Origin: Protula sp. h YS-2021 | Taxonomy: Eukaryota > Annelida > Polychaeta > Sabellida > Serpulidae | Length of the DNA stretch: 64,000 nucleotides | Assembly (NCBI GenBank): GCA_949752745.1 | Contig: OX457027.1 | Coordinates: 18,618,603 to 18,682,602, forward strand | Direction: 5' to 3' | In this document: in pieces, positions 35,401-60,700 of the stretch | Layout of the letters: every line of letters starts with the position of its first letter | Position numbering within the stretch: the first letter of the stretch is position 1 | The notes under the pieces: model-generated | The model's input: only the letters and a program-made list of their open reading frames with translations | What the model was told of the DNA's origin: nothing | Databases searched by the model: none | Made by a program: the position numbers and the translations under genes

Positions 35401-38400
35401 AACGAGTTTGTTAACACGATATCTCAAGAACAACTGCAAGGATTTTAATGAAACTTGGTGTGTATCTTCTGTGGGCACTAACAAGGATCGGTATTGTCAA
35501 TGGGTTAGGTTGGCCCACGGAAAATGAGCCAAATGCACTTCGAAATTCACCAAATCCTGGAAATTATTCAGCATCGGAATGAGTTTGTTAACACGATATC
35601 TCAAGAACAACTGCCGGGAATTTAATGAAACTTGGTATGTAGCTCCTATGGGAAACAAACACAGATCGGTATTGTGAATGGGCCAGGTTCGTCCAAGCAA
35701 AATGGATCAGATGGACTTAGAAAATTTCAGCTCTTGATTGACTATTGATGGCCGTGTTTAACTGATTGGGGGCCTGTGGGGAATATGTGGGCTATGCACA
35801 CTGCTCTAGTTCATTCATGCACTGGCCACCTGCTCTGACATTATGCGCCGTGTTTCATTCACGCATTGGCCACGTGCTCTGACATCATGCTTCGTGTTTC
35901 ATTCACGCACTAGTCACGTGCTCTGACATCATGCTTCGTGTTTCGTTCACGCAATGGCCACGTGCTCTGACATCATGCGTCGTATTTCATTCACACACTG
36001 GCCACGTGCTCTGACATTATGCGCCGTGTTTCATTCACGCACTAGTCACGTGCTCTGACATCATGCTCCGTGTTTCATTCACACACTGGCCACGTGCTCT
36101 GACATTATGAGCCGTGTTTCATTCACGCACTAGTCACGTGCTCTGACATGCGTCGTGTTTCATTCACGCACTAGTCACGTGCTCTGACATCATGCTTCGT
36201 GTTTCATTCACGCACTGGCCACGTGCTCTGATATTATGCGTCGTGTTTCATTCACGCACTAGTCACGTGCTCTGACATCATGCTTCGTGTTTCATTCACG
36301 CACTGGCCACGTGCTCTGACATCATGCTTCGTGTTTCATTCACACACTGGCCACGTGCTCTGACATTATGCGCCGTGTTTCATTCACGCACTAGTCACGT
36401 GCTCTGACATGCGTCGTGTTTCATTCACGCACTAGTCACGTGCTCTGACATGCGTCGTGTTTCATTCACGCACTAGTCATGTGCTCTAACATCATGCTTC
36501 GTGTTTCATTCCCGCACTGGCCACGTGCTCTGATATTATGCGTCGTGTTTCATTCATGCACTAGTCACCTGCTCTGACATTATGCGCCGTGTTTCATTCA
36601 CGCACCGGCCACGTGCTCTGACATCATGCTTCGTGTTTCATTCACGCACTGGCCACCTGCTCTGACATTATGCGCCGTGTTTTATTCACGCACCGGCCAC
36701 GTGCTCTGACATCATGCTTCGTGTTTCATTCACGCACTAGTCACGTGCTCTGACATCATTCGTCCTGTTTCATTCACGCACTAGCCACGTGAACAAGAAG
36801 ACGACGTTCACGGACCCGAGGCTTGCCTTCGCCGTGGACACGGAAGTCGCCGTGGAAGGCCGAGCGCGGCACCGCTACGAGGTCAAGCAGAGGTTCGATG
36901 CCAGCAGCAAGCCGTCGCAGATTCTGCTGGGCCGAGACCTGTCCAAGAAGTGTGCCATTGTGACGGGGGCCAGCTGTGGCTTGGGTTCGTCTGCATTCTT
37001 TCATGTAGTCACCTGAAACTAGTCAAAATTAAAAACTAGAGAAGCAGAATAGTTAGTACCCCAGAAATACAGCTACAGCTGTAAATGCAGATGTAACATC
37101 TGTTCCTCTGACTTTTCATCGAAAAACCTATATTCAACCTCCCCCCGCCCCTGCCCAAATCGTTGTGGAAAGTAAACCCGTCCCGAATCGTATGGAATTT
37201 GGTGTATTGACCACGGGGAATTTGAAAACCTGGAATATTTTTATCGACTTAGTCTTGGATTTCATCTGAATGACAGGCATTCTAAACACTTTAAAACGAG
37301 TCGTATCCAATTTCGAAAAAATAAAAATATAACGCAAGTTTTAGCAAAAGAATAGGTTTGAAAAAAAAAATGTTATTAAGACCAAAAACATGACCAGAAA
37401 GACAGACTGACATGTACAGAGCACTTTAAAGAGAGCGCCGTGTGTCTGTTTGACTGCAGGATACGAGACAGCTCGAGCCCTGGCCTTGCATGGCGCCAAC
37501 GTGGTGCTGGCGTGCAGAGACGCGGCAAGGGGACAGGCGGCCGTGGACGCCATCAGGAACGAGAGGCCACAAGCTTGTGTAAGGAAAGATAGTATCACAA
37601 TGACGGCAGTATCTTCCATGTGTCCCTTCTGACAAAAAAATTAAATAAAACAAAACAGGACTATTAAAAAAACACGCGCTCACCCTTCTGGGTAGTCTAG
37701 GCATACTGAGACTGATTTCATCCAAATTGTGGTGTGTAAAATGTGGGACCTTACTTCATTAAAAATGCAAGGAAAGGAATGGAAGATATTGCCATAGTGA
37801 TAATATTATAATAGTAGCAACAATAATAGCTATTGTTGTTTGTTTTCATCTGAAGTGACTGATGGAGGCAACTGGTTGATGAAGTTGCACCTAGAAAGAT
37901 TATACAATTTTTAAAAGAAATCCACCTGTATTTCTAGAAGCTATGCTTAGTTATAATTTTAGAATTTACACGGTTTTAACTAACGTGGATTTTAACTGTG
38001 ATAATATTGTTTTCTGCTCAGTCCTTGACATGTAATGACACACTGTAACCCGCGAAGGGTCGACCGTATAACTAACTAACCATCCCATGTACCCAAACTG
38101 GGAAGTCGGGTGCCTCCAAAAGTAGGTGACGTAAGACAAAGAAACCTTATTTTAATAATTCTCGCTAATTATAGTGTATGAAATGGCAAATCATCAAGAA
38201 AATAATTAGGCTTGTGAAGGTTTTAATGCGTACAGTTATAAGCGTATGCGATGCCTCTTGTTGTATGTACACTACAGTTACGGGTCACAAGTAATGACGT
38301 CATCCAAAAAAGGGATCGTTTTTGTCATGAAATGTTTCTGAAGATGAGAGAAACTTGTATAGATGCAAACCTGTTGGGTTCCTAGGTGTCGTTAGGATTA

Positions 38401-41400
38401 AGAAACCTTGGTGTTATTTTCGAGCAGGTGGAAGCAATGACCCTCGATTTACTGTGTTTGAAGAGTGTCACGGATTTTTGTGCCAAGTTTATTTCCAGCA
38501 GAAGGTATGAATAAAGTTCTGATCATGCAGCTCATCGCTCTAGGTGTAAACATAACAGGGAACTGTGCCATTTGAAAAGCATCGTTTCTGTGAAGCTGTG
38601 AGTCGTTAAAATGCGACATCAGAGTGAAAACCAGGGTTAAACATTAGCCTGTATGAAGAGAAAGAGATAAACGGGGTCACTTATAGGTCACTTCCTTTCC
38701 TGTGTCAGGTAATGGGGCCCAAAAGACCATTTTGATTTATAAATAAATATAATTTGATGAAAAGTGTCATTTATATTATTTGTATTTTTTATTCCAGGCA
38801 TTTACATATCTTAGTTTTAAACGCTGGAGTGTTTTCCATGCCATACACATTAAGTGATGACGGTTACGAAAGCACCTTTCAAACCAACCATTTGGGACAT
38901 TTCTACCTGACGCAGCAGCTGGAGCCCCTACTGCTGATGTCAGCTCCAGCCAGGGTGGTCGTCGTTTCGTGCGAGTCACACAGGTGACCTTTTTCGCCAA
39001 ATTGACTTATTAGAATGACTTATTATCCCCCGTGAAACGGAGGGTTATAGTTACGAGCTGGTCCGTCCGTCCGTCTTGCCGTCTGTCTGTCCGCAAAAAG
39101 GAACCTGAAACCTTACGTGGTGAAAATATATATATTGAAGATGTGCAACGTGGCATTATTGTCAGAATCGGCCAAAAATTGACGTCGTGAGAAACTGTGA
39201 AATATGGTGAATTTTTGGCTTGAACTTAGCCGTGAGACGATGTTTTCGATAGAAAGGATTGTCGTAGGAACTTGAAACCTTGCGTGTTGAAAATATATAT
39301 ATTGAAGTTATGCAACGTCGCATTATTTTCAAAAGCGGCCAAAAATTGACGTCGTAGGAAGTTGTCAAATATGATGAATTTTTGGCTTGAACGTAGCCGT
39401 GAGACGATGTTTTGTCCGGTCGACTTCTCATAGCAGGGATTGTAGTAAGAACCTGAAACCTTGCAGCGTGACTTGCTGCAATCTAATTGGTCAATTTCCA
39501 AGTCAATAATTTTTCAATGCTGACCGAAACGCAAAAGTCTATAGATATTACTGTTATTTGCGATCAAAACGCCTGTTAAGTCATGTAACAAAGGATGTAG
39601 TGAATTATTTCGGGTCAACATGAAGGTCAACATTTTCTCACTGTTCAACAGTCCATCATGTTTACTCAAAATAAGTCTGTATCTGACTCAAGAGTAGTCA
39701 GTAGGTGCAGTTGTGTGAGTCACTGTGTTCGCTTTAATGTAATCATAGTGCATGTCACTCATTGTAATCACTTCAATTTAATCGTAATGCGTGTGTGTGT
39801 ATTGTAATCGCTTCAATGTATATTTCTAGATTTACAGATCTCAACAGTCAAACAATATCTGTTGACAAGCTGTCTCCTTCCGCGGGTGCCTACAAGCCAA
39901 TGGTAGCTTACAACCAGTCTAAGCTCTGCAACATTCTCTTCTCAAACGAACTCAACAGGCGCCTGTGCCACCAGAAAGTGTTCAGCAATGCGGTGCATCC
40001 GGGCAATGTAATAAGCACGGGGCTGTCGAGGCAGTGGTGGGTCTGGCGTCTGCTCTTCGCGCTCCTCAGGCCGTTCACTAAGTCAAAGGTAGAAACACCG
40101 CAATCAAAGCAGTCAATGACTACGTGCATCACTGACTTTCCGGTAGTACTTTTATTCAGAATGCCCACGTTTTCTGGGCCAAACCCACTTGCGTCAGGGG
40201 AATTCCATCAGCTTTGTGGTTTTTAAATGTATGTAGTTGTGTTATACGATTTCTACATACTTTTACTAATTCTTACAAATAGCCTCCCCCACCCCCATCC
40301 CCCCCCCTCACCTCGTCGACTCATAAACAAATTTGTTACAGCTAAATGTGGCAAGCAGGCAGATGATATGGAAACTTTGTTTTTATACTTTCTGTGTGTA
40401 TGAGTATGTAGTATGTGCGTCTGATGTAGACACTTGAATTTGTTAACACGATACGCCGGATCAGCTTCAAACTTGGTGGGATTATGCTCTGGTTTGGTTC
40501 ACCGGTTGGGTTTATTTCACGTATACAGGGTTCGCACAAAGTCCTGGAAGGCCTAGAAAAGGAAACGGCCGAAAAAAGTTCTGGAAAGGCCTGGAAATTG
40601 CAAATCCCCCGAATTTTTTTCCAGACTTATAAAGGGCCTATGTAATCGATGCCTACATATATAACGTCATTGAAGGGTCGTAGGTAAGAAGTGCACAAGC
40701 GGCATTTTTGTTAGTTGTCAGCTGAACCCGGCAGTGAATCGATAAGGGTTACTTCTAACATTTCCAATGCAAAGTTTCTCGGTGTAACTGAATGAGTCCA
40801 TTATAACACCACAAAAAGACTTGTGCTGTTCTGCATTTTTGCGACTTTTCAAGGGAAAGAACTGCACAAGCCCAAAACCAAAGACATGCCGCTTTAGCAC
40901 TGCTTTCCGACGACCCTTCCTGTGTTGTGGACACTAGATCTTGTTAACACAATAACTCAGCTTCAACTGGTGGGATGGTGCCTTGGTCTGTCGGTTACTT
41001 TTTTACGCTTATATAAAAACGCGTGACGTCATATGACGCCACAATGTCAAAAGTGCGTCGTCATTGTAAGTGCAAAACAAAACATCGGATTAGCTTCGAA
41101 CTTAGTAGGATAGTACCGTGGGTGAGTTTGACGATTCATATTATATTTGGCGTGTAAAGTGCTCTGCATGACGTCTTAGGACGTCAAAACGTGTTGTGGA
41201 CACTTGACGTTGGTAACACGATATCTGTCGAGCGACAGACCGGATCCATCCGATTCAAACTTGATGGGATTATGCCCTGGATTAGACTGCCGGTTTCTAG
41301 TGTAGGTGACGCATGTTGGACAGTACGTGACGCCATATGACGTCAAAGCGTGATTACAAACTCGCACCTCACCCGCTTCTCCTATGAATGTTGGGGAAGA

Positions 41401-46435: not shown

Positions 46436-46467
46436 TTATATATATATATATATAAGTAGTAGGAAAA

Positions 46468-46975
46468 CGCCGATTCCAGCACAGCCCCCTCCTCCCTCCC
46501 CTCCCCTCCTCCCCTCCCCCCCTCCCCCCTCCCCCCCCCCCAGGCGGCAGTCAGGTCAGACCATAAAGTGTGGACGCCGATTCCAGCTCACCTGGTTGTG
46601 CTGCCGATTCCAGCTCAGTGACGTCAAACCCCCCCTCCCCTCCCCCCCCCCCCCCTAGGCGGCAGTCAGGTCAGACCATAAAGTGTGGACGCCGATTTCA
46701 GCTCAACTGGTTGTGCTGCCGATTCCAGCTCAGTGACGTCAAACCCCTCCCCTCCCCCTCCCCTCCCCTCCCGTCCCCTCCCCTCCCCCCCCCCCCAGGC
46801 GGCAGTCGAGAATTCTTTTTTTTTTTTTTTTTGGGTGGCAGGTGGCAGTCGGGACAGACCATACAGTGTGGACGTCGATTCCAGCTCACTTCATTGTGCC
46901 GCCGATTCCAGCTCAGAGACGTCATACACCCCCCTCCCCCCTCCCCCCCTCCCCCCCTTCCTAGCCGAGCCACAT
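46468..46975. repeat. Left subterminal C-rich repeats
   Basis: Four degenerate ~90-170-bp units, each with CCGATTCCAGCTCA (usually twice), TGACGTCA or GACGTCAT, a C-rich tract with CTCCCC runs, CAGGCGGCAGTC and AGACCATA(A/C)AGTGTGGACG. Repeated subterminal motifs next to element ends are typical binding sites for a transposase or replication protein. TGACGTCA is also a CREB-type site. Proline-rich frames here are by-products of the C tracts. Confidence 0.8.
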
Positions 46976-48476
46976 TCTATCAAGTGAGCAAGTGACACAC
47001 AAGAATTTGATCACATACCAAATCGGTGTGCTACAGGACAGGTGGCAAAAATCAAGACACCTCCCCCCTCCCCCCCCCCCCCCAGGCGGCAGTCGAGAAT
47101 TGTTTTTTTTTTTTTTTTTTCTTTATTTTTAATTTTTTTTTTTTTTTTTTTTTTTTTTTTGATTCAACTCATTGGGTTCTGCCACCGAATCTAGCTCAGT
47201 GACGTCAGTCTAAAACACACACAGCTCTTGTTATGCAGTGTTTGTAAACAGACAGGCGGCAAAGCCAGCCTGGATACTGTAACAGGTGGTAAAAATCAAC
47301 ATTGCTAGCAGTGTTAAAAACAATGAATGCAAGAGGCAAAGCTCACGTTCTGTGAGGTTGCGTATCCAAATGACGCTGGGGTCACCATGTGTCGCGAATA
47401 GCGACGGGAGTGTGTTCACACGGGCCATGAAAATAAGTAACCTGACATGACCTGAATTTTAATAGTTTATTTCAACGCACAAAAAATACGTTTTAAATTC
47501 CCCAACACACCAAATATCTTTAATGAAAACACCTTATCAAAGACAAGCATATTCCAACCGGTACTAAACCTGGTGCACCACAATGCACCACACGCTGTTC
47601 TCCTTGTAGTAACACAGCACCTCCTCTACGTATACACTGAAGCTGTGTCCGTCAAAGTACGGACCACACCATGAAATTGCACCCTTCCGAAAGGTGCTGT
47701 AACACTAACAACGCGCTGCTCCCAGTTCCTTTGACACACCGCCGCGGCACCCGTTATGCACCTCAGACGCACCAATTGAACATCACACTACACCCGCTCC
47801 TGTACACACGCTGTGCCCGACACCGTACTGCCAGAACTCCCACTTCACCGGCACGTCTTAGCAGGCATGCTGAATAACACAGAATCAAATGATTCTTTTA
47901 CTAATCAGCTCTACAAAGCTTTCAATACATTCATTTTTTTTTGCTCTCGTTGACTAGTTTTTTTTTAAACCCTGTGCTCCCGTACTGGTTTATGAATTGT
48001 GTATTGGTCAGTCTGTTTTGCAACATTTTACAGCATTGTAGGATTTCTTTACTAAAAAAAAATGTGCAAACACAAAACAACAGAAAAAAACTTACCTGAA
48101 TATAGTATCTCTTACTAATCTAAATGAATATGTTACAAACCATTTACTGTGCTATCCTAAAACAGTTAGCATCCGTATTAAAAGTTAAACGTTAGCACAT
48201 ATTTTTTAGAATGCTCTTTCAATATGTAAAACTTCTCGCCTGTTCTCTAACAGCATTTGTTCTAAGACTCATTCTTTTCTCAAATAGCTGAAAAGTACAA
48301 AGTCGACTGCGCTAGACACACAGCTCTTGTTATGCAGTGTTTGTAAACAGACAGACGGCAAAGCCAGCGGGGATACTTAACAGGTGGTAAAAATCAACAT
48401 TGCTAGCAGTAAGTGAGGAAAGAGGGGTTCCAGCACATTTCACTGTTTGATTCAGGTTTATGTTAAGTTTTGTTAT
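46856..48476. repeat. 1.62-kb tandem duplication, unit 1 (left arm)
   Basis: Starts AGACCATACAGTGTGG and ends ...TAAGTTTTGTTAT. The next unit begins at 48477 with the same AGACCATACAGTGTGG. Both contain C-rich and T-rich tracts, an LTR/PBS-like segment and two copies of a ~95-bp motif (ACACAGCTCTTGTTATGCAG onward). The short ORFs at 47671-47877 and 47231-47428 are repeated identically in unit 2. Confidence 0.92.
47217..48412 (-). mobile_element. LTR/PBS-like segment, left arm copy 1
   Basis: Read on the minus strand it has an AATAAA, then ...CGCGACA, two bases, and TGGTGACCCCAGCG (plus-strand 47380-47393), like the U5 end of an LTR followed by a primer-binding site. A ~95-bp motif occurs on both sides (47217-47310 and 48318-48412). 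The same segment is present at 48827-50020 and, in mirror, at 55830-57020. The upstream LTR border is not secure because the repeated motif extends beyond the candidate TG. Confidence 0.45.
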
Positions 48477-50088
48477 AGACCATACAGTGTGGACGTCGAT
48501 TCCAGCTCACTTCATTGTGCCGCCGATTCCAGCTCAGAGACGTCATACACCCCCCTCCCCCCTCCCCCCTCCCCCCCTTCCTAGCCGAGCCACATTCTAT
48601 CAAGTGAGCAAGTGACACACAAGAATTTGATCACATACCAAATCGGTGTGCTACAGGACAGGTGGCAAAAATCAAGACACCTCCCCCTCCCCCCCCCCCC
48701 CCCAGGCGGCAGTCGAGAATTGATTTTTTTTTTTTTTTTTTTTTTTAATTTTTTTTTTTTTTTTTTTTTTGATTCAACTCATTGGGTTCTGCCACCGAAT
48801 CTAGCTCAGTGACGTCAGTCTAAAACACACACAGCTCTTGTTATGCAGTGTTTGTAAACAGACAGGCGGCAAAGCCAGCCTGGATACTGTAACAGGTGGT
48901 AAAAATCAACATTGCTAGCAGTGTTAAAAACAATGAATGCAAGAGGCAAAGCTCACGTTCTGTGAGGTTGCGTATCCAAATGACGCTGGGGTCACCATGT
49001 GTCGCGAATAGCGACGGGAGTGTGTTCACACGGGCCATGAAAATAAGTAACCTGACATGACCTGAATTTTAATAGTTTATTTCAACGCACAAAAAATACG
49101 TTTTAAATTCCCCAACACACCAAATATCTTTAATGAAAACACCTTATCAAAGACAAGCATATTCCAACCGGTACTAAACCTGGTGCACCACAATGCACCA
49201 CACGCTGTTCTCCTTGTAGTAACACAGCACCTCCTCTACGTATACACTGAAGCTGTGTCCGTCAAAGTACGGACCACACCATGAAATTGCACCCTTCCGA
49301 AAGGTGCTGTAACACTAACAACGCGCTGCTCCCAGTTCCTTTGACACACCGCCGCGGCACCCGTTATGCACCTCAGACGCACCAATTGAACATCACACTA
49401 CACCCGCTCCTGTACACACGCTGTGCCCGACACCGTACTGCCAGAACTCCCACTTCACCGGCACGTCTTAGCAGGCATGCTGAATAACACAGAATCAAAT
49501 GATTCTTTTACTAATCAGCTCTACAAAGCTTTCAATACATTCATTTTTTTTTTTGCTCTCGTTGACTAGTTTTTTTTTAAACCCTGTGCTCCCGTACTGG
49601 CTTATGAATTGTGTATTGGTCAGTCTGTTTTGCAACATTTTACAGCATTGTAGGATTTCTTTACTAAAAAAAAATGTGCAAACACAAAACAACAGAAAAA
49701 AACTTACCTGAATATAGTATCTCTTACTAATCTAAATGAATATGTTACAAACCATTTACTGTGCTATCCTAAAACAGTTAGCATCCGTATTAAAAGTTAA
49801 ACGTTAGCACATATTTTTTAGAATGCTCTTTCAATATGTAAAACTTCTCGCCTGTTCTCTAACAGCATTTGTTCTAAGACTCATTCTTTTCTCAAATAGC
49901 TGAAAAGTACAAAGTCGACTGCGCTAGACACACAGCTCTTGTTATGCAGTGTTTGTAAACAGACAGACGGCAAAGCCAGCGGGGATACTTAACAGGTGGT
50001 AAAAATCAACATTGCTAGCAGTAAGTGAGGAAAGAGGGGTTCCAGCACATTTCACTGTTTGATTCAGGTTTATGTTAAGTTTTGTTAT
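48477..50088. repeat. 1.62-kb tandem duplication, unit 2 (left arm)
   Basis: Nearly identical to unit 1; differences are in T and C tract lengths and a few bases (for example CTGGCTTATG against CTGGTTTATG). It continues at 50089 into AAGTGGTTATGGGC, the sequence that follows the single copy in the right arm. Unit 1 is therefore the extra copy. Confidence 0.92.
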
Positions 50089-50407
50089 AAAGTGGTTATG
50101 GGCTACTTGCATTTTTTGTCGCATGCCGCCATTTTAACTTAAAAGTGACCTAACTGTCGTTATGCTTAACCAATTTGTATGAAAATATCACTGTTTGATT
50201 CAGTTTTATATCTAGTTTTGTTATTAAGTAGTCACAGGTTATTTGCACATGTGGCTGTAAGCATAATGTATATTTTAGTAGCGTTTGAAAAAAGTAGATA
50301 ACTTTCACCATGTTCAACCGATTTGACTGAAAATTTTACCGTTTGATCTAGTTTTATTTCTAGTTTACAGTGGTCACAGGCTATTTGCACAGGTGAGAAG
50401 AGCACAC

Positions 50408-50489
50408 CATTCAAACATGTGTTCGAATGGCAAGCCCATTTAAAAGACGTGTTCGAATGGCAAGCCCATTCAATACACGTGTTCGAATG
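50408..50489. promoter_or_regulatory. Three 22-23-bp palindromes, ~30-bp period (left arm)
   Basis: 50408-50429 reads CATTCAAACATGTGTTCGAATG, with sister sites at 50437-50459 and 50467-50489 (CATT...ACGTGTTCGAATG). Each is an imperfect palindrome of the form CATTCRAACAYGTGTTCGAATG separated by GCAAGCC. Regular spacing on about three helical turns and a position between the array and the outer arm suggest protein-binding sites, perhaps for a dimeric protein. Function is inferred. Confidence 0.65.
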
Positions 50490-50531
50490 ATTTTGTGGAA
50501 GATATTACGTCATGGTATTGTTCAAAAAATT

Positions 50532-50774
50532 GTTCAACATGTTGAACATGTTCAACATGTTCAACAAGTTCAACATGTTCAACATGTTCAACATGTTCAA
50601 CAAGTTCAACATGTTCAACATGTTCAACAAGTTCAACATGTTCAACATGTTCAACATGTTCAACATGTTCAACATGTTCAACAAGTTCAACATGTTCAAC
50701 ATGTTCAACAAGTTCAACATGTTCAACATGTTCAACAAGTTCAACATGTTCAACATGTTGTTCAACAAGTTGTT
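50532..50774. repeat. 9-bp tandem array GTTCAACAT/GTTCAACAA (left arm)
   Basis: About 27 units of TTCAACATG with TTCAACAAG variants, ending CATGTTGTTCAACAAGTTGTTG. It lies about 60 bp upstream of the zinc-finger start codon. Since 9 is a multiple of 3, the array is open in several frames (QHV, FNM, LNM peptides); these are artefacts. The order of ATG and AAG variants differs from the right arm, so the arrays evolve independently. It resembles an iteron array. Confidence 0.9.
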
Positions 50775-50836
50775 GTATATGAAGCTATGTTTAAAGACTT
50801 TCTCATCATTTGAATAGTGTAGGTTGAACCGAAAGA

Positions 50837-51572
50837 ATGTATAAATGCAACATTTGTTCGAAATCTTACAATTGGCCGCAAAGTCTTAAAAGACACTCAA
50901 AGGTTACTCACACGTCAGAAGTGGATGAAGAATCGGATATGGAAAAACCCTGTAAAACTACCTTTCACGGAAACTTTAGATGAGTCTTCTATGGAAAGTC
51001 AAAGCGTTAATATGGCTGAAAAGAACGCACAGGCTTGTACAGAATGTGGTGCATTATACAACAGCGAAGAAGCTTTGCTCAAACATATGGAGCAGTGTGG
51101 TGAGGATGCTGATGACAGGAGTTCTGAAAGTGAGTCAGAAACAGACTCTGAAAGTGAGTCAGAAATAGACTCTGTTTGGTATGATATGGTTCAAGAAGTC
51201 TACGATGACTATGATGTCAAATTTCAAGAAAAGGTTTCAGAATATGAAGAACAAGGACTTGAAGATGCGCGGGAACTAGCAAGTTATGACCTTCGACCCA
51301 TTTATAAACATGGACTAAAACAACTGTTTATGAGACTATTCAACTATACCCAGCGTCTAGAACAAAGCCAACATTATCAAAAGATTTTAAAGGACTTTAA
51401 TTACTTTGTGGATGAAAAACATTACAAGTATTCAAAGGCACTAAAGGCGGCTATAAGGAAAAACAATGCATTCTTTGAAGAGCTACTAGATATGGAGGAA
51501 GAGGAGTATGACAGCAGTGATGAAGAAAGTGGTATGGAGAGTGAACAGAGTGAAACAGAAGAAGAAAAATAG
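50837..51572 (+). pseudogene. Zinc-finger/acidic protein gene, left copy with frameshift
   Basis: Same gene as 54264-54998 (-). An extra A in the run near 50941-50945 shifts the frame after about residue 36, separating the first C2H2 finger from the rest. A downstream Met-started frame (50925-51572, 215 codons) still encodes the second finger and the helical/acidic part. Leu replaces Ile in the AREL/AREI position. This arm may therefore make only a truncated protein. Confidence 0.8.
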
Positions 51573-51822
51573 ACTTATTTGACTAAACTTTATGATAAAG
51601 ACTTTATAAATGTTGTAATATTTTATGAACTTAAGCGTTGTGTATTAATATATGCCTTGCTTTGCAACATATAAAGTCGTAAGGTTATTGACGCGGTTTT
51701 AATTGACCCGTAAACCATATATCATATATCGTATATTAGGTATTATAGTTAATTTTGTATTATTATGTATTATATTCAAGAATTGTATTATTATGTATTA
51801 TATTCAAGTATTGTATGAGAAA

Positions 51823-51858
51823 AATAAAAAGTTGAAAAGCATCATATGTGTGTTTATT
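51823..51858. terminator. Convergent poly(A) signals, left arm
   Basis: AATAAA at 51823-51828 (+, for the zinc-finger gene) and TTTATT at 51853-51858 (AATAAA on the minus strand, for the PC4-like gene) are 24 nt apart, so the two convergent transcripts should overlap at their 3' ends. Confidence 0.6.
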
Positions 51859-51998
51859 GAATATTACAAATATGTACAATTATGATACAAACAAAACTAT
51901 TTCAAATACATATTATGTTAATACATGTGCAGATTCACAAGAACTTAACTTAAAATTTTATAACAACTAACTTCACATGAACATAGATGATGTTAATT

Positions 51999-52184
51999 TC
52001 ATAGTCTACATATGAAGACAATTTTATTTGAACTACATATCAAATGTACATGCCCATTTGAGTTAAAGCTAAGTTTCAAGTTCTTGTTAAGCTTCAAAAC
52101 CTTCGCTCCAATCTTCTGCACTGAGGGTGATGAAATCATAGCATCCACTAAGCTCGTCATGCAGTTAAAACTGTATACAGTCAT
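51999..52184 (-). CDS. Small ORF downstream of PC4-like gene (left)
   Basis: Mirror of 53652-53837 with the same 61-residue product. The same caution applies: it may only be untranslated sequence. Confidence 0.3.
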   Translation of the reverse strand: MTVYSFNCMTSLVDAMISSPSVQKIGAKVLKLNKNLKLSFNSNGHVHLICSSNKIVFICRL

Positions 52185-52192
52185 CTCGCTGT

Positions 52193-52765
52193 CTACTCAA
52201 CGATCTTCTGACAGTCACTACATTTATACAAATCCATTTTCTGAAGCATGAGATCCACTGACGTCATTTGCTTCTTCAGCATGTGCCAATCGTTCAATGA
52301 CAACAAAATTCCCTTCTTGGTAGGATGTAACCTCCCAGATGTATGATCCGTAATATATTCACGAATGTTAACCATCACTTTCTGTTGATATTTCGCCAAT
52401 TTAATATATATTTCTCCATTAATAGGTATCATAACCGGTAAATCGTCTACACTCATCTCCTTCATGGTGGTAGCAGCTTTACACTCTGGTTCTCGCTTCA
52501 TTTTAGGCTCTGTCTTAATTTTTCGCTTTTTACACGGCGGCGTCATAGCTGGTAACTCATCTCTTTTTATCTTTCTAAGATGTGGTCGCTTTTGACGCTG
52601 CTGACATGACTTTGCCTTAGACTTTACCATGGGCATTGCCTTAGACTTTGCTGTAGGTATTGTCTCAGGCTTTACTGTAAAATTTTCTGCAGGCATTGTC
52701 TCAGACTTTTCTACAGGCATTGTCATAGATGGTAGTTGTTGTTCACTCACTGCAGACATGTTCAC
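52193..52765 (-). CDS. PC4-like ssDNA-binding protein, left copy
   Basis: 190 codons, identical in protein to 53071-53643. Residues 1-55 are a low-complexity M/P/K/E repeat region. 56-95 is basic with a likely nuclear localisation signal (PPCKKRKIK). About 116-172 matches the PC4/Sub1 coactivator fold: GEIYIKLAKYQQKVMVNIRE, then a GRLHPTKKGILLS loop and NDWHMLKKQM helix. The C-terminus has CSDC. PC4 binds single-stranded DNA and melted promoters and aids transcription or replication. The gene is transcribed away from the central array. Confidence 0.82.
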   Translation of the reverse strand: MNMSAVSEQQLPSMTMPVEKSETMPAENFTVKPETIPTAKSKAMPMVKSKAKSCQQRQKRPHLRKIKRDELPAMTPPCKKRKIKTEPKMKREPECKAATTMKEMSVDDLPVMIPINGEIYIKLAKYQQKVMVNIREYITDHTSGRLHPTKKGILLSLNDWHMLKKQMTSVDLMLQKMDLYKCSDCQKIVE

Positions 52766-52841
52766 TCTTCAGTATCTTGATACAGAATGTACGTTATGTC
52801 TGAGGACAGATGCCTTTTATGCTCTATAGTGAGTTGTCTTA

Positions 52842-52994
52842 ATATGTTGAACAACAACTTGTTGAACATGTTGAACAACTGGTTGAACAACAACTTGCTG
52901 AACATGTTCAACATGTTCAACATGTTGAACAACTGGTTGAACAACAACTTGCTGAACATGTTCAACATGTTCAACAAGTTGTTGTTCAACATAT
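52842..52994. promoter_or_regulatory. Centre of symmetry with GTTGAAC/GTTCAAC array
   Basis: Between the two divergent PC4-like genes. The 83-bp spacer 52877-52959 holds a 29-bp direct repeat (52877-52905 and 52931-52959, AACTGGTTGAACAACAACTT then GCTGAACAT) around a GTTCAACAT core. The flanks are inverted GTTGAAC words. It must contain the promoters of both PC4-like genes and could also be a replication origin. The spacer's asymmetry means the axis itself is not a perfect palindrome. Confidence 0.7.
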
Positions 52995-53070
52995 TAAGAC
53001 AACTCACTATAGAGCATAAAAGGCATCTGTCCTCAAACATAACGTACATTCTGTATCAAGATACTGAAGA

Positions 53071-53643
53071 GTGAACATGTCTGCAGTGAGTGAACAACAA
53101 CTACCATCTATGACAATGCCTGTAGAAAAGTCTGAGACAATGCCTGCAGAAAATTTTACAGTAAAGCCTGAGACAATACCTACAGCAAAGTCTAAGGCAA
53201 TGCCCATGGTAAAGTCTAAGGCAAAGTCATGTCAGCAGCGTCAAAAGCGACCACATCTTAGAAAGATAAAAAGAGATGAGTTACCAGCTATGACGCCGCC
53301 GTGTAAAAAGCGAAAAATTAAGACAGAGCCTAAAATGAAGCGAGAACCAGAGTGTAAAGCTGCTACCACCATGAAGGAGATGAGTGTAGACGATTTACCG
53401 GTTATGATACCTATTAATGGAGAAATATATATTAAATTGGCGAAATATCAACAGAAAGTGATGGTTAACATTCGTGAATATATTACGGATCATACATCTG
53501 GGAGGTTACATCCTACCAAGAAGGGAATTTTGTTGTCATTGAACGATTGGCACATGCTGAAGAAGCAAATGACGTCAGTGGATCTCATGCTTCAGAAAAT
53601 GGATTTGTATAAATGTAGTGACTGTCAGAAGATCGTTGAGTAG
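53071..53643 (+). CDS. PC4-like ssDNA-binding protein, right copy
   Basis: Mirror copy with an identical 190-residue product, so selection or very recent homogenisation keeps both. A short LP(A/V/S)M(T/I) motif recurs three times (near residues 11, 71 and 109). A second start (MSAV) lies two codons in. It is followed after 8 nt by a 61-codon frame and then by an AATAAA at 53978-53983, 25 nt before the opposing signal of the zinc-finger gene. Confidence 0.82.
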   Translation: MNMSAVSEQQLPSMTMPVEKSETMPAENFTVKPETIPTAKSKAMPMVKSKAKSCQQRQKRPHLRKIKRDELPAMTPPCKKRKIKTEPKMKREPECKAATTMKEMSVDDLPVMIPINGEIYIKLAKYQQKVMVNIREYITDHTSGRLHPTKKGILLSLNDWHMLKKQMTSVDLMLQKMDLYKCSDCQKIVE

Positions 53644-53651
53644 ACAGCGAG

Positions 53652-53837
53652 ATGACTGTATACAGTTTTAACTGCATGACGAGCTTAGTGGATGCTATGA
53701 TTTCATCACCCTCAGTGCAGAAGATTGGAGCGAAGGTTTTGAAGCTTAACAAGAACTTGAAACTTAGCTTTAACTCAAATGGGCATGTACATTTGATATG
53801 TAGTTCAAATAAAATTGTCTTCATATGTAGACTATGA
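53652..53837 (+). CDS. Small ORF downstream of PC4-like gene (right)
   Basis: 61 codons starting MTVYSFNC 8 nt after the PC4-like stop, in the same orientation. The mirror copy is 51999-52184 on the minus strand with the same protein. No domain recognised; KVLKLNKNLKLSFNSNGHVH looks like a beta-rich stretch. Conservation alone is not evidence, since the arms are homogenised throughout. It may be 3' UTR. Confidence 0.3.
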   Translation: MTVYSFNCMTSLVDAMISSPSVQKIGAKVLKLNKNLKLSFNSNGHVHLICSSNKIVFICRL

Positions 53838-53977
53838 AATTAACATCATCTATGTTCATGTGAAGTTAGTTGTTATAAAATTTTAAGTTAAGTTCTTGTG
53901 AATCTGCACATGTATTAACATAATATGTATTTGAAATAGTTTTGTTTGTATCATAATTGTACATATTTGTAATATTC

Positions 53978-54013
53978 AATAAACACACATATGATGCTTT
54001 TCAACTTTTTATT
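53978..54013. terminator. Convergent poly(A) signals, right arm
   Basis: AATAAA at 53978-53983 (+, PC4-like gene) and TTTATT at 54008-54013 (minus-strand signal of the zinc-finger gene). Mirror of the left arm. Confidence 0.6.
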
Positions 54014-54263
54014 TTTCTCATACAATACTTGAATATAATACATAATAATACAATTCTTGAATATAATACATAATAATACAAAATTAACTATAATACCTAA
54101 TATACGATATATGATATATGGTTTACGGGTCAATTAAAACCGCGTCAATAACCTTACGACTTTATATGTTGCAAAGCAAGGCATATATTAATACACAACG
54201 CTTAAGTTCATAAAATATTACAACATTTATAAAGTCTTTATCATAAAGTTTAGTCAAATAAGT

Positions 54264-54998
54264 CTATTTTTCTTCTTCTGTTTCACTCTGTTCACTCTCC
54301 ATACCACTTTCTTCATCACTGCTGTCATACTCCTCTTCCTCCATATCTAGTAGCTCTTCAAAGAATGCATTGTTTTTCCTTATAGCCGCCTTTAGTGCCT
54401 TTGAATACTTGTAATGTTTTTCATCCACAAAGTAATTAAAGTCCTTTAAAATCTTTTGATAATGTTGGCTTTGTTCTAGACGCTGGGTATAGTTGAATAG
54501 TCTCATAAACAGTTGTTTTAGTCCATGTTTATAAATGGGTCGAAGGTCATAACTTGCTATTTCCCGCGCATCTTCAAGTCCTTGTTCTTCATATTCTGAA
54601 ACCTTTTCTTGAAATTTGACATCATAGTCATCGTAGACTTCTTGAACCATATCATACCAAACAGAGTCTATTTCTGACTCACTTTCAGAGTCTGTTTCTG
54701 ACTCACTTTCAGAACTCCTGTCATCAGCATCCTCACCACACTGCTCCATATGTTTGAGCAAAGCTTCTTCGCTGTTGTATAATGCACCACATTCTGTACA
54801 AGCCTGTGCGTTCTTTTCAGCCATATTAACGCTTTGACTTTCCATAGAAGACTCATCTAAAGTTTCCGTGAAAGGTAGTTTTACAGGGTTTTCCATATCC
54901 GATTCTTCATCCACTTCTGACGTGTGAGTAACCTTTGAGTGTCTTTTAAGACTTTGCGGCCAATTGTAAGATTTCGAACAAATGTTGCATTTATACAT
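54264..54998 (-). CDS. C2H2 zinc-finger protein with acidic helical C-terminus, intact copy
   Basis: 244 codons. Finger 1: C4, C7, H20, H25 (C-x2-C-x12-H-x4-H). Finger 2: C67, C70, H83, C87, a C2HC variant. Residues 91-115 are Ser/Glu/Asp-rich, 115-215 a helical region (VWYDMVQEVYDDYD, DLRPIYKHGLKQLFMRLF, AAIRKNNAFFEELL), 216-244 a very acidic tail. The layout, finger then W..xxxY, ARE.AxxDLxPxY and KxxxFxxLL helices, resembles a family of C2H2 proteins that I recall as abundant in invertebrate genomes near Maverick/adintovirus-like elements; that link is from memory only. It probably binds DNA, perhaps the upstream 9-bp array. Confidence 0.75.
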   Translation of the reverse strand: MYKCNICSKSYNWPQSLKRHSKVTHTSEVDEESDMENPVKLPFTETLDESSMESQSVNMAEKNAQACTECGALYNSEEALLKHMEQCGEDADDRSSESESETDSESESEIDSVWYDMVQEVYDDYDVKFQEKVSEYEEQGLEDAREIASYDLRPIYKHGLKQLFMRLFNYTQRLEQSQHYQKILKDFNYFVDEKHYKYSKALKAAIRKNNAFFEELLDMEEEEYDSSDEESGMESEQSETEEEK

Positions 54999-55062
54999 TC
55001 TTTCGGTTCAACCTACACTATTCAAATGATGAGAAAGTCTTTAAACATAGCTTCATATACAA

Positions 55063-55312
55063 CAACTTGTTGAACAACATGTTGAACATGTTGAACATGT
55101 TGAACTTGTTGAACATGTTGAACATGTTGAACTTGTTGAACTTGTTGAACATGTTGAACTTGTTGAACATGTTGAACATGTTGAACATGTTGAACTTGTT
55201 GAACATGTTGAACATGTTGAACATGTTGAACTTGTTGAACATGTTGAACATGTTGAACTTGTTGAACATGTTGAACATGTTCAACATGTTGAACAATTTG
55301 TTGAACAATACC
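55063..55312. repeat. 9-bp tandem array GTTGAACAT (right arm)
   Basis: Mirror array, about 27 units, with a different pattern of CTT and CAT variants. It lies upstream of the intact zinc-finger gene (start codon at 54998). Both ends finish in inverted GTTGAAC/GTTCAAC words, giving small hairpins. Confidence 0.9.
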
Positions 55313-55336
55313 ATGACGTAATATCTTCCACAAAAT

Positions 55337-55418
55337 TATTCGAACACGTGTATTGAATGGGCTTTCCATTCGAACACGTCTTTTAAATGGGCTTGCCATT
55401 CGAACACATGTTTGAATG
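55337..55418. promoter_or_regulatory. Three 22-23-bp palindromes, ~30-bp period (right arm)
   Basis: Mirror of the left-arm sites: ATTCGAACACGTGTATTGAATG ending at 55359, a middle site at about 55367-55389, and CATTCGAACACATGTTTGAATG at 55397-55418. Sequence is preserved between arms except for G/T-type changes in the spacers (GCTTTCC against GCTTGCC). Confidence 0.65.
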
Positions 55419-55829
55419 GTGTGCTCTTCTCACCTGTGCAAATAGCCTGTGACCACTGTAAACTAGAAATAAAACTAGATCAAACGGTAAAATTTTCAGT
55501 CAAATCGGTTGAACATGGTGAAAGTTATCTACTTTTTTCAAACGCTACTAAAATATACATTATGCTTACAGCCACATGTGCAAATAACCTGTGACTACTT
55601 AATAACAAAACTAGATATAAAACTGAATCAAACAGTGATATTTTCATACAAATTGGTTAAGCATAACGACAGTTAGGTCACTTTTAAGTTAAAATGGCGG
55701 CATGCGACAAAAAATGCATACAGCCGTCGGTGCAAGTAGCCCATAACCACTTTATAACAAAACTTAACATAAACCTGAATCAAACAGTGAAATGTGCTGG
55801 AACCCCTCTTTCCTCACTTACTGCTAGCA

Positions 55830-57020
55830 ATGTTGATTTTTACCACCTGTTAAGTATCCCCGCTGGCTTTGCCGTCTGTCTGTTTACAAACACTGCATAA
55901 CAAGAGCTGTGTGTCTAGCGCAGTCGACTTTGTACTTTTCAGCTATTTGAGAAAAGAATGAGTCTTAGAACAAATGCTGTTAGAGAACAGGCGAGAAGTT
56001 TTACATATTGAAAGAGCATTCTAAAAAATATGTGCTAACGTTTAACTTTTAATACGGATGCTAACTGTTTTAGGATAGCACAGTAAATGGTTTGTAACAT
56101 ATTCATTTAGATTAGTAAGAGATACTATATTCAGGTAAGTTTTTTTTCTGTTGTTTTGTGTTTGCACATTTTTTTTAGTAAAGAAATCCTACAATGCTGT
56201 AAAATGTTGCAAAACAGACTGACCAATACACAATTCATAAACCAGTACGGGAGCACAGGGTTTAAAAAAAAAACTAGTCAACGAGAGCAAAAAAAAATGA
56301 ATGTATTGAAAGCTTTGTAGAGCTGATTAGTAAAAGAATCATTTGATTCTGTGTTATTCAGCATGCCTGCTAAGACGTGCCGGTGAAGTGGGAGTTCTGG
56401 CAGTACGGTGTCGGGCACAGCGTGTGTACAGGAGCGGGTGTAGTGTGATGTTCAATTGGTGCGTCTGAGGTGCATAACGGGTGCCGCGGCGGTGTGTCAA
56501 AGGAACTGGGAGCAGCGCGTTGTTAGTGTTACAGCACCTTTCGGAAGGGTGCAATTTCATGGTGTGGTCCGTACTTTGACGGACACAGCTTCAGTGTATA
56601 CGTAGAGGAGGTGCTGTGTTACTACAAGGAGAACAGCGTGTGGTGCATTGTGGTGCACCAGGTTTAGTACCGGTTGGAATATGCTTGTCTTTGATAAGGT
56701 GTTTTCATTAAAGATATTTGGTGTGTTGGGGAATTTAAAACGTATTTTTTGTGCGTTGAAATAAACTATTAAAATTCAGGTTATGTCAGTTTACTTATTT
56801 TCATGGCCCGTGTGAACACACTCCCGTCGCTATTCGCGACACATGGTGACCCCAGCGTCATTTGAATACGCAACCTCACAGAACGTGAGCTTTGCCTCTT
56901 GCATTCATTGTTTTTAACACTGCTAGCAATGTTGATTTTTACCACCTGTTACAGTATCCAGGCTGGCTTTGCCGCCTGTCTGTTTACAAACACTGCATAA
57001 CAAGAGCTGTGTGTGTTTTA
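55830..57020 (+). mobile_element. LTR/PBS-like segment, right arm
   Basis: Candidate LTR from TG at 55848 to CA at 56840-56841 (994 bp), with AATAAA at 56760-56765 about 75 bp before the end and TGGTGACCCCAGCG at 56844-56857 as a primer-binding-site-like sequence of the type seen in BEL/Gypsy elements. The 95-bp start motif recurs after the PBS (56930-57020). No gag or pol follows. It was presumably captured before the arms became inverted copies, or was spread between arms by gene conversion. Confidence 0.45.
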
Positions 57021-57254
57021 GACTGACGTCACTGAACTAGATTCGGTGGCAGAACCCAATGAGCTGAATCAAAAAAAAAAAAAAAAATTCAAAAAAAAAA
57101 AAAAAAAAAAAAAAACAATTCTCGACTGCCGCCTGGGGGGGGGGGGGGGAGGGGGAGGTGTCTTGATTTTTGCCACCTGTCCTGTAGCACACCGATTTGG
57201 TATGTGATCAAATTCTTGTGTGTCACTTGCTCACTTGATAGAATGTGGCTCGGC

Positions 57255-57705
57255 TAGGAAGGGGGGGAGGGGGGAGAGGGGAGGGGGAGGGGGGTGTATG
57301 ACGTCTCTGAGCTGGAATCGGCGGCACAATGAAGTGAGCTGGAATCGACGTCCACACTGTATGGTCTGTCCCGACTGCCACCTGCCACCCAAAAAAAAAA
57401 AAAAAAAAAATTCTCGACTGCCGCCTGGGGGGGGGGAGGGGAGGGGAGGGGAGGGGAGGGGAGGGGTTTGACGTCACTGAGCTGGAATCGGCAGCACAAC
57501 CAGTTGAGCTGAAATCGGCGTCCACACTTTATGGTCTGACCTGACTGCCGCCTAGGGGGGGGGGAGGGGAGGGGGGAGGGGAGGGGTTTGACGTCACTTA
57601 GCTGGAATCGGCAGCACAACCAGGTGAGCTGGAATCGGCGTCCACACTTTATGGTCTGACCTGACTGCCGCCTCCGGGAGGAGGGGGCTGTGCTGGAATC
57701 GGCGT
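57255..57705. repeat. Right subterminal G-rich repeats
   Basis: Reverse complement of the left subterminal repeats with TGAGCTGGAATCGG motifs about 20-60 bp apart, TGACGTCA at each unit and G-rich tracts. Unit lengths and G-tract lengths differ from the left arm, as expected for slippage-prone sequence. Confidence 0.8.
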
Positions 57706-57718
57706 TTTCCTACTACTT

Positions 57719-60700
57719 ATATATATATATATATATATATATTAATCGAAATGAAGAGCAGGGAAGTTAAAATGGATACATTAAAACTAGCGTTTATAGC
57801 AAAAGAAAATTTAAATATGGTTCACGTAAATATGGGTCACATCACCCTGCGGGTTCGGTCAATATTCACCTTTGACTTTGAAACGTATTCCCCTCTTATT
57901 TATAATGTCCACACTAGTAGGACTGTGTTTGATTGGGCCCCAATTTTATATTTATTTCTTATCTTCCCTGTTTTTTTTTTTTTCTTATGCCCATATACGG
58001 CCTCTTGAGTAAAGGCGAACGTTGAACACAATGAAATAAAAGGTGTTATACGTTTTTCTAACATTTACTTTCGTGATCCTCAAGGGCGAATGGGATAGGC
58101 TTTTCTTAACATTTTAACATGAGGCTACGTGCACTTCATCAGTTTCTGTGATTAATGCAGTTGAGTCCTATTGCCACACATTACATGTTCGCTCTCATTT
58201 CGGCTTATTACATTTTAGAACATTCCGCTATGTGAACGGAAACGTTAAAATACACTTTGAGGGTGCTTTATGCCAGATGTACAACCACTTCTGCCGCGGA
58301 GGATGACATGACATTTTTTAAACTACAGTTAAGCCACTATTGTAGATGTGTTTAAAAAATACGGGTTTTTGAGTGAGTTTCGTATTACGATGTGAAAAAA
58401 AATACTTAAAAACAGGTTGCATCCAAATGACATCACAATGCGTGAGATGCAATAACTACTTTGTTTTCTGTAAGGCGAGATACGATTGTGTGGTTAATGA
58501 CATAGTCCTCAGTAAGCCAGCCATGCAATAGCAACCAAGCCTGCCGCAACAACCTTTCCAGCAACAAAAGGTGATGCAGGAGCAACGAGCACATAATTAT
58601 ACAAGTAGTGGTATAGAAACAACATGAAGTGTGGTCATAACTCTTTTGGGCAGAAGGAGACTCGTATCAATGGCCAGTTCAATCAGGCTTAACAGGCTTA
58701 ACAGGTCTTGGTAATCAATTGGAAAGAATTTTCAATTTTTTTGGGCTTGGGATATTATCCAAACACCGCATTTTTTTAAGTGCCCGTCTCCTATGAATTC
58801 CAGTCTTGGCCTTCTCAAGTTTTTGCCATCGGATATGTAACTCTTCGACCAGTTTAACTTATCCACGTATTGCTTGTTATGACTTATGCATAACTTCTGA
58901 AAAATTCTTGAGTTTCTTGAACTTTTTATAATCTGATGTAATATTTGACGTTGTGATGACATAGTTTAATATTCAGTGCCACACCGAACTGCAACGTGGT
59001 GAAATATCACTTGATCAAGCACTCGGTAATAAGCTTAGATACCAATAGGAATCGTGTTATGAATTTATTGTGCATTGCCTGAGCAAAAAAACTTTTAAGT
59101 GTGTATATTTTGACAAAGCTTAGTTGTTTTCCTGCTTCAGCAATATTTTGCGAAGTGCGGGATATTATGATAAAAATCCACTATTAGAGATCGAGTGGGT
59201 TTATAACCGATGTAAAATACGGAATGGAACAAGAGAATGCAAATGTATGGAAAACTTAATTCCAAATGCTGCACAGGTAATATTGTTATTGACGTTTAGT
59301 ACTGCACTTACTATAAGCTTTCAAGGCATCTATTAAACGCATCTTTACCATGACATTTTGTTTATAAAAAAATGCGGCTGCATCAACATAAAATAAACTC
59401 AAAAATGTGCATGTGCCATTAAAATACAAAAAAAATTATGTACTGCGCTGTCTCGAAAGTATTTTGAATTCTGTGCTTTTGATTTCATGTAGAAAGTATT
59501 TTCAATGCCTTTACATTCAAGAACCATACACGTTTGTGACTTCAACTATTTTAAACCATATTTGTTCTTCATATATTAAACATAAAAAAATCCTAAACAA
59601 GGCATTTAAACTTTGACATTTTGGACAGAACTGTCATGGAGGAGATGAGGTTGAGGGGAAGAACTTAGAGGAATCGTTTAAAGCTGATCGACAATTAAAA
59701 ACATAAGATAGGGTTGACGGGTTTGAATAACAACGCTCATTGTCGATGAGTAGTTTCGATTTTGTTGTTTATTTTGTGTTGTGGTTAGTGGTAAATAAAT
59801 ATTTTTATTTTAAAAAATGTCGGATTGTAGACGATGAAGCTATAGGTTTTCCAATGTGTTAACATTGGTTATTACTGCAAATGTAAACATTGAACGATTT
59901 CACCTGTTGCTGTGTTTACAATGCTTAATCATCCAATCGGCGAATCAGCGTCGGTGCAATGTCAGTCACCTGTCCGTGCCATTCCCAACTTATCGCGATC
60001 TAATAAACAGGACATTTTGACTAGCCACATTTTTTCAATCATGACCTATCAAATTCAATAATGATTTGCATACTTTTCGGATATTACTTATCTTTATTAG
60101 CATGCATAAGTATACCGTAAGTTTCATATTGTTTGGTTTACAGATTACGTTTTGCTGACTTTGTTTTTCCTACATGCTGTAGTTCTGGGTTTTGTAAAAC
60201 TGGTTTCGTTTGATAAACGCTTTCTGGCTATCAGGAACTTCATTGTAGGTTATAGCTAACTTATGCCGAAGTGATTTCTGGGCGATTTCCTTAGAAATCA
60301 TGCCTCGACGCCTTCTCATTGTCAGCACGTAGTTTCAATCGAGTCTTCTATGCAATCAGGAGAGTATTAACTCTCCGTCATCCTCGTGATGTCCTCGTGA
60401 TGTTATAGAGGCAGCCTACTAGTAGTGGTTCGCCATCTCGCCACTGTGTCGGATCACAGCTTAAATACACCGTCTCTGTATTACTGTACGAGGTTTTCCC
60501 TTGCTTTTCCACATTCATAGTGAATGTGAACACATTTAAGCGAACAGCAAATTGTATCTGCTTTGCTTCTGAAGACTGTGAGGTTATCGGTGTAATACTG
60601 CGCGTCTTGGGTTATTTCGGCACTTGAAACCACATATATCCTCGGCACAGTTAATCAGACTCCACGCTCAGCCAGCTAGCTAGGATGCTCCCCTGTTCTT

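Follow-up and report, generated by a model that had tools for sequence, protein, structure and literature searches.

Non-autonomous DNA transposons and foldback elements are inverted-repeat elements mobilised in trans. The replication of Polintons in animals has, to our knowledge, been deduced but never watched. Vertebrate Mavericks make 6-bp target duplications and carry, among others, (AGT)2//(ACT)2 end motifs (PMC8097293, in the sections available), and PMC11071296, in its accessible part, mentions zinc-finger (ZF) regulators for certain adintoviruses and for an adomavirus found in a clam dataset. Snapback defective genomes of adeno-associated virus (AAV) are self-complementary, symmetric or asymmetric, and derive from one part of the viral genome (PMC8235507, in part). 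Here we describe an 11.3-kb palindromic element that carries PC4-type and ZF genes in a 64,000-nt stretch of DNA (hereafter the window) from the serpulid annelid Protula sp. h YS-2021, located at C4:18618603-18682602 in the 863-Mb genome. Because of its ends, the 6-bp duplications of its family and the kinship of its ZF and PC4 genes, the element is probably a non-autonomous, self-complementary derivative of Polintons/Mavericks (adintovirus-like), in which snap-back products would integrate and spread as Polinton satellites.

With Polintons/Mavericks and adintoviruses the element has in common 6-bp duplications of the target site and ends of the (AGT)2 type (cf. PMC8097293), and its PC4 and ZF genes are related to genes in the Polintons of the same genome; it differs from them in that no gene for PolB, integrase, capsid or the ATPase core was seen in it, and in being a two-gene unit in two inverted copies. 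Like AAV snapback genomes it is self-complementary, with symmetric or asymmetric forms, and would come from part of a virus-like genome, but AAV is a parvovirus whose snapback genomes are particles in virus stocks, whereas the window element belongs to a dispersed chromosomal family. With foldback elements it shares the inverted-repeat form and, as proposed here, mobilisation in trans, but its arms carry protein genes that are conserved between two families. Among the titles and abstract openings that our searches of open-access papers listed, we found no description of a palindromic or non-autonomous gene-bearing Polinton; a search directed at non-autonomous, miniature or derivative Polintons returned no paper, and the available portions of PMC10294476 and PMC6431247 do not mention palindromes. 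On the present evidence the element is best classed as a gene-bearing, palindromic, non-autonomous Polinton derivative.

The element begins exactly at 46455 (AGTAGTAGG...) and ends at 57717 (...CCTACTACT), on each side one base inside the interval 46454..57718 given in a preliminary description of the window (Table 1). The inverted repeat claimed there was borne out by arm alignments of 98.6% identity over 4425 columns (48477-52877 vs 57367-52959) and 97.3% over 1962 columns (46531-48477 vs 57687-55753), with the gene-bearing inner 1934 nt of each arm 100% complementary and an inter-arm spacer of 81 nt. The palindrome is far longer and better matched than chance would produce. Left and right arms are nevertheless separated by substitutions and indels, and the sequences beyond the two ends are mutually unalike. 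The terminal inverted repeats begin with AG and are of the (AGT)2 type, as in Polintons/Mavericks, and the window's own TATATA pair, which lies inside a TA repeat, is consistent with a 6-bp target duplication.

The PC4 genes read outward from the centre, with the ZF gene convergent to PC4 in each arm; both genes were present in each arm as the preliminary description had it, except that the ZF copy on the left carries a frameshift. The PC4 copies of the two arms are identical across 573 nt, and their predicted protein aligned with solved PC4 structures (E 5e-7), which are those of single-stranded DNA (ssDNA) binders. The 9-bp arrays noted earlier were also recovered as sequence, with units of the ATGTTCAAC type in tandem upstream of both ZF genes and at the centre, and one might guess that the predicted ZF protein acts on them. 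Neither a protein-primed PolB nor an rve integrase (found in Polinton stretches L029 and L031) occurred among the element's open reading frames (ORFs) of at least 100 aa, those other than PC4 and ZF being low-complexity or repeat frames, and no capsid gene was seen among its ORFs. The earlier statement that polymerase and integrase are missing is thus true of the window copy, while Polintons with both occur elsewhere in the genome. Between the window ZF and that of L034, dN/dS (ratio of non-synonymous to synonymous change) was 0.35, which by this comparison of coding sequences indicates constrained evolution.

We searched the genome for the PC4 gene at the DNA level and obtained at least 45 matches (40 of 1977 first-look candidates scored), two of them the window's own; outside the window, 39 spanned all or nearly all of the gene with 98-100% identity and 4 were partial. 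The ZF gene gave at least 41 matches (40 of 2396 candidates scored) in 32 places including the window, 9 of which held two inverted ZF copies inside 4 kb. These copy counts are lower bounds, as are the matches to the PC4 Pfam family (at least 150, with 150 of 5119 candidates scored), which comprised open frames in several length classes. Ten sister copies were examined as paired stretches drawn from the best PC4 matches, so an intact PC4-bearing arm in them reflects this selection. The sister copies start with AGTAG, except that L017/L018 has AGTCG at one of its ends. Exact 6-bp duplications of the target flanked 6 of 8 sister copies and both PolB-bearing Polintons, compared with 0 of 90 mismatched flank pairs used as a control. 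The procedure was identical for the control and required AGTAG-type ends on both sides, keeping the best-fitting among one or two placements; L027/L028 and L021/L022, with ends not located, lie outside the ten elements tested. The resemblance of the window's first 30 nt to the end of the Polinton on C3 was matched by 1 of 2000 shuffles that kept the first 6 nt, and the same test gave 0 to 49 of 2000 for eight sister ends and 20 of 2000 for the Polinton on C11.

These results place the window element in a dispersed mobile family: the full-length relatives sought elsewhere in the genome exist, are dispersed and have target duplications, which excludes ordinary tandem host genes. Identity with Ginger was also rejected because Ginger elements have 4-bp duplications and TGTNR ends (PMC2836005, in the sections available). 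A phage origin was rejected as well; scans of viral contigs with single ZF and PC4 sequences gave no relative, the scan with the ZF alignment gave 0 matches and that with the PC4 alignment gave one (L047), a contig whose ORFs of at least 180 aa appear phage-like by reading, with one terminase-like frame and no Polinton gene. Four PC4 proteins (P0006, P0010, P0012 and P0014) have a long extra N-terminal domain that is death-fold-like by eye; Pfam scans of two of them, P0010 and P0012, found PC4 alone.

Polinton-type polymerases gave at least 84 matches in the same genome (89 of 4183 candidates scored). The Polinton on C11 (L029/L030, with ends at L029:4148 and L030:3127) encodes PolB, an integrase and a 579-aa ZF-ATPase protein, in which an N-terminal C2H2 finger is followed by an ATPase-like part and then by a C-terminal region where, by reading, a finger-like motif, a helical stretch and an acidic tail can be made out. 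The window ZF protein was 42% identical to the N-terminal finger over 26 residues and matched the C-terminal part weakly (17%, E 0.006), while a four-sequence ZF profile aligned with the C-terminal part of 11 ZF-ATPase proteins at an hhalign probability of 99.0% (E 6.6e-18), the N-terminal finger lying outside this alignment. The window ZF protein looks like the ZF-ATPase protein minus its ATPase core, in whichever order the two descended. Among the 120 of 145 matches listed for the ZF-ATPase protein, the named ones include entries from the bivalves Mytilus, Mizuhopecten, Mya, Solemya and Mercenaria. The Polinton on C3 (L031-L033) encodes PolB, an integrase (two ORFs) and an ATPase with a match to adenovirus IVa2, has CTCAGT as its target duplication and carries a PC4 ORF that adjoins the integrase. 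Its capsid and protease ORFs, labels guessed by size and place, had no Pfam match, and a PDB search with its 457-aa ORF found no match. The ends, the PC4 domain and the ZF protein, the last through the ZF-ATPase proteins and also L034, indicate homology with PolB-bearing Polintons of the same genome.

At C4:12551330-12564350 we found a 13-kb palindromic element with GTTGTT on both sides, whose left end equals the left end of the C3 Polinton across 40 nt. Its inner 8.4 kb form a palindrome of 99.9% identity over 8356 columns, with symmetry that is perfect out to 3100 nt from the axis in both directions, and its outermost segments also repeat each other in inverted orientation (99.6% over 458 columns); the symmetry refers to these two parts, with 1.7 kb of the left arm (12551801-12553499) outside them. 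Each arm contains a PC4 ORF together with four other ORFs from the right end of the C3 Polinton, to which the palindrome is 99.6% identical over 2425 nt, as well as a ZF gene with 81% DNA identity to the window ZF. The axis coincides with that of a 44-nt hairpin sited 8 nt inside the left terminus of the C3 Polinton. On C5, two inverted PolB matches at 28.72 Mb enclose a palindrome of 99.5% identity over 4582 columns with a 26-nt loop. The C4 and C5 palindromes have the form to be expected if a displaced strand had folded back. Another inverted PolB pair occurs at C3:98126045-98130955, and the intervening sequence (L046) contains inverted repeats at 99.5-99.6%, with an apparent ZF-ATPase start near its middle by reading and a complex centre.

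In all ten elements with both arms, the window included (L021, which has no opposite arm, was left out), each arm was nearest to its own partner (20 of 20), with own-partner identities of 95.8-100% and identities of 90.9-98.7% to the best arm of another copy. Either both arms are made anew from a single one with every copy, or conversion evens them out after insertion. With 9-bp arrays masked, the arm opposite the intact PC4 gene stopped near the centre at about a dozen distinct points across 19 copies, several inner stops being approximate positions within repeats. The unique sequence of this arm was complete in 2 of 19 copies (the window and L025), absent from the stretch examined for L037 and L022, and reduced to two short matches in L042. 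One breakpoint inside the ZF start, at arm coordinate 2035, was common to L041 (C1:29273010), L044 (C3:92563910) and L038 (C10:40224914), so an asymmetric form has apparently multiplied in its own right. The pattern of stops fits an ancestral full palindrome followed by one-sided losses, or repeated asymmetric fold-backs.

A Polinton derivative of this form could arise if, during Polinton-type replication, a displaced strand folded back, at a terminal hairpin as in one sister element or a short loop as in another, and the folded strand were copied into a head-to-head duplex. The duplex would retain Polinton ends, so that a Polinton integrase acting in trans could insert it with a 6-bp duplication. 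The PC4 protein, through ssDNA binding, and the ZF protein, possibly on the 9-bp arrays, may aid the element's own copying or expression, and later one-sided losses beside the centre would yield unequal arms. The ends, the 6-bp duplications, the PC4 and ZF kinship and the hairpin-centred sister give good support to the preliminary suggestion that the element derives from a Maverick-like one by snap-back, an event that we infer. Nothing found here requires the other suggestion, a replicon with iterons.

Several observations count against a Polinton derivative formed by strand fold-back. BLAST comparison of the window element with the C11 and C3 Polinton stretches gave no DNA match, so its kinship to them is drawn from ends and proteins, and two sister copies had imperfect duplications (5/6 and 4/6). 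The window's centre is a 9-bp array with no Polinton hairpin, and fold-back is therefore indicated for its family by analogy with the sister elements. The ZF gene is oriented differently relative to PC4 in the window family and in the C4 palindrome, and the right-end hairpin of the C3 Polinton, at the end whose genes the C4 palindrome holds, has one mismatch in this copy, with the left-end hairpin being perfect. Constraint within the family was weak (pN/pS 0.46 for PC4, from 7 distinct of 8 open sequences among 14 copies, and 0.67 for ZF, from 5 distinct of 7 open among 17 copies). The narrowest margin between own and other arms was 98.23 vs 98.08% (L018), and arm-to-arm similarity could stem from gene conversion after insertion. 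Chromosomal palindromes are indeed homogenised by gene conversion, and the inner arms of the window element are more alike than the outer ones, as points in favour of a non-autonomous Polinton family whose palindrome and arm similarity were made in the chromosome, by inverted duplication and gene conversion. We consider such an origin unlikely, given that the C4 palindrome most likely entered as such, because Polinton ends and a 6-bp duplication enclose the whole, and given that its axis coincides with a terminal hairpin.

Long inverted arms, the lack of a PolB or integrase ORF and the missing DNA match to the two Polintons would also suit an ordinary cut-and-paste transposon with long terminal inverted repeats, or a fold-back element, unrelated to Polintons and carrying PC4 and ZF by chance. 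This is largely refuted, and very improbable, as the 6-bp duplications and AGTAG ends resemble those of two PolB-bearing Polintons, both proteins are related to Polinton proteins, and the C4 palindrome unites a relative of the window ZF with a stretch that is 99.6% identical to a Polinton. Fold-back (hairpin) long reads do occur, but that they created the palindrome during assembly is barely conceivable, because substitutions, indels and a 1.6-kb duplication set the two arms apart, the flanks are unalike, and several independent loci have the same form, with whole elements framed by target duplications.

Table 1 Features of the palindromic element, in window positions.
Feature	Position	Strand	Remark
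Whole palindromic element, imperfect	46455..57717 (11,263 bp)	.	
Left TATATA flank, putative target duplication	46449..46454	+	Exact length undecidable within TA microsatellite
Left terminus, (AGT)2 Maverick-type end, AGTAGTAGGAAAACGCC...	46455..46484	+	Motif cf. PMC8097293 (available sections)
1.6-kb tandem duplication, left arm only (copies 46856-48477 / 48477-50089)	46856..50089	.	
9-bp array upstream of left ZF gene	50531..50759	.	
Left ZF copy, frameshifted by one-base length difference	50837..51572	+	
Left PC4-type gene, 188 codons from ATG	52193..52759	-	
Palindrome centre, 9-bp-type array between divergent PC4 genes	52853..52981	.	
Right PC4-type gene	53077..53643	+	PF02229, E 1.5e-11
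Right ZF gene, open, 244 aa, two C2H2 fingers	54264..54998	-	Reading of the sequence suggests a helical domain and an acidic tail
9-bp array upstream of right ZF gene	55076..55295	.	
Right terminus, left terminus inverted	57688..57717	-	
Right TATATA flank	57718..57723	+	

Elsewhere in the window, a non-LTR (long terminal repeat) retrotransposon on the forward strand (22155-30075) is apparently interrupted by a DIRS-like element on the reverse strand, which has gag-like, reverse transcriptase-RNaseH and tyrosine-recombinase ORFs at 26961-23378 (identities by ORF reading) and a 300-bp direct repeat at 22878/27171. A 44-bp tandem array with about 22 copies in its main block occupies 34969-36791, and a short-chain dehydrogenase-like ORF with a weak Pfam match (E 0.17) lies at 39795-40226, presumably resembling a WWOX exon.

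The Polinton derivatives described here suggest that virus-like transposons have gene-carrying satellites, with a role comparable to that of defective or satellite viral genomes. A bolder and tentative reading is that the satellites of animal Polintons/adintoviruses include a lineage that is obligately self-complementary. Its members would be mirror-image replicons that copy through a folded strand, rewrite one arm from the other in each cycle and encode a ZF and an ssDNA-binding protein themselves, with helpers providing polymerase, integrase and perhaps capsids. The hairpin-centred, target-duplicated C4 element, the short-looped C5 palindrome and the window family would be chromosomal records of replicative strand fold-back, and the palindrome may record how Polinton-type elements copy themselves.

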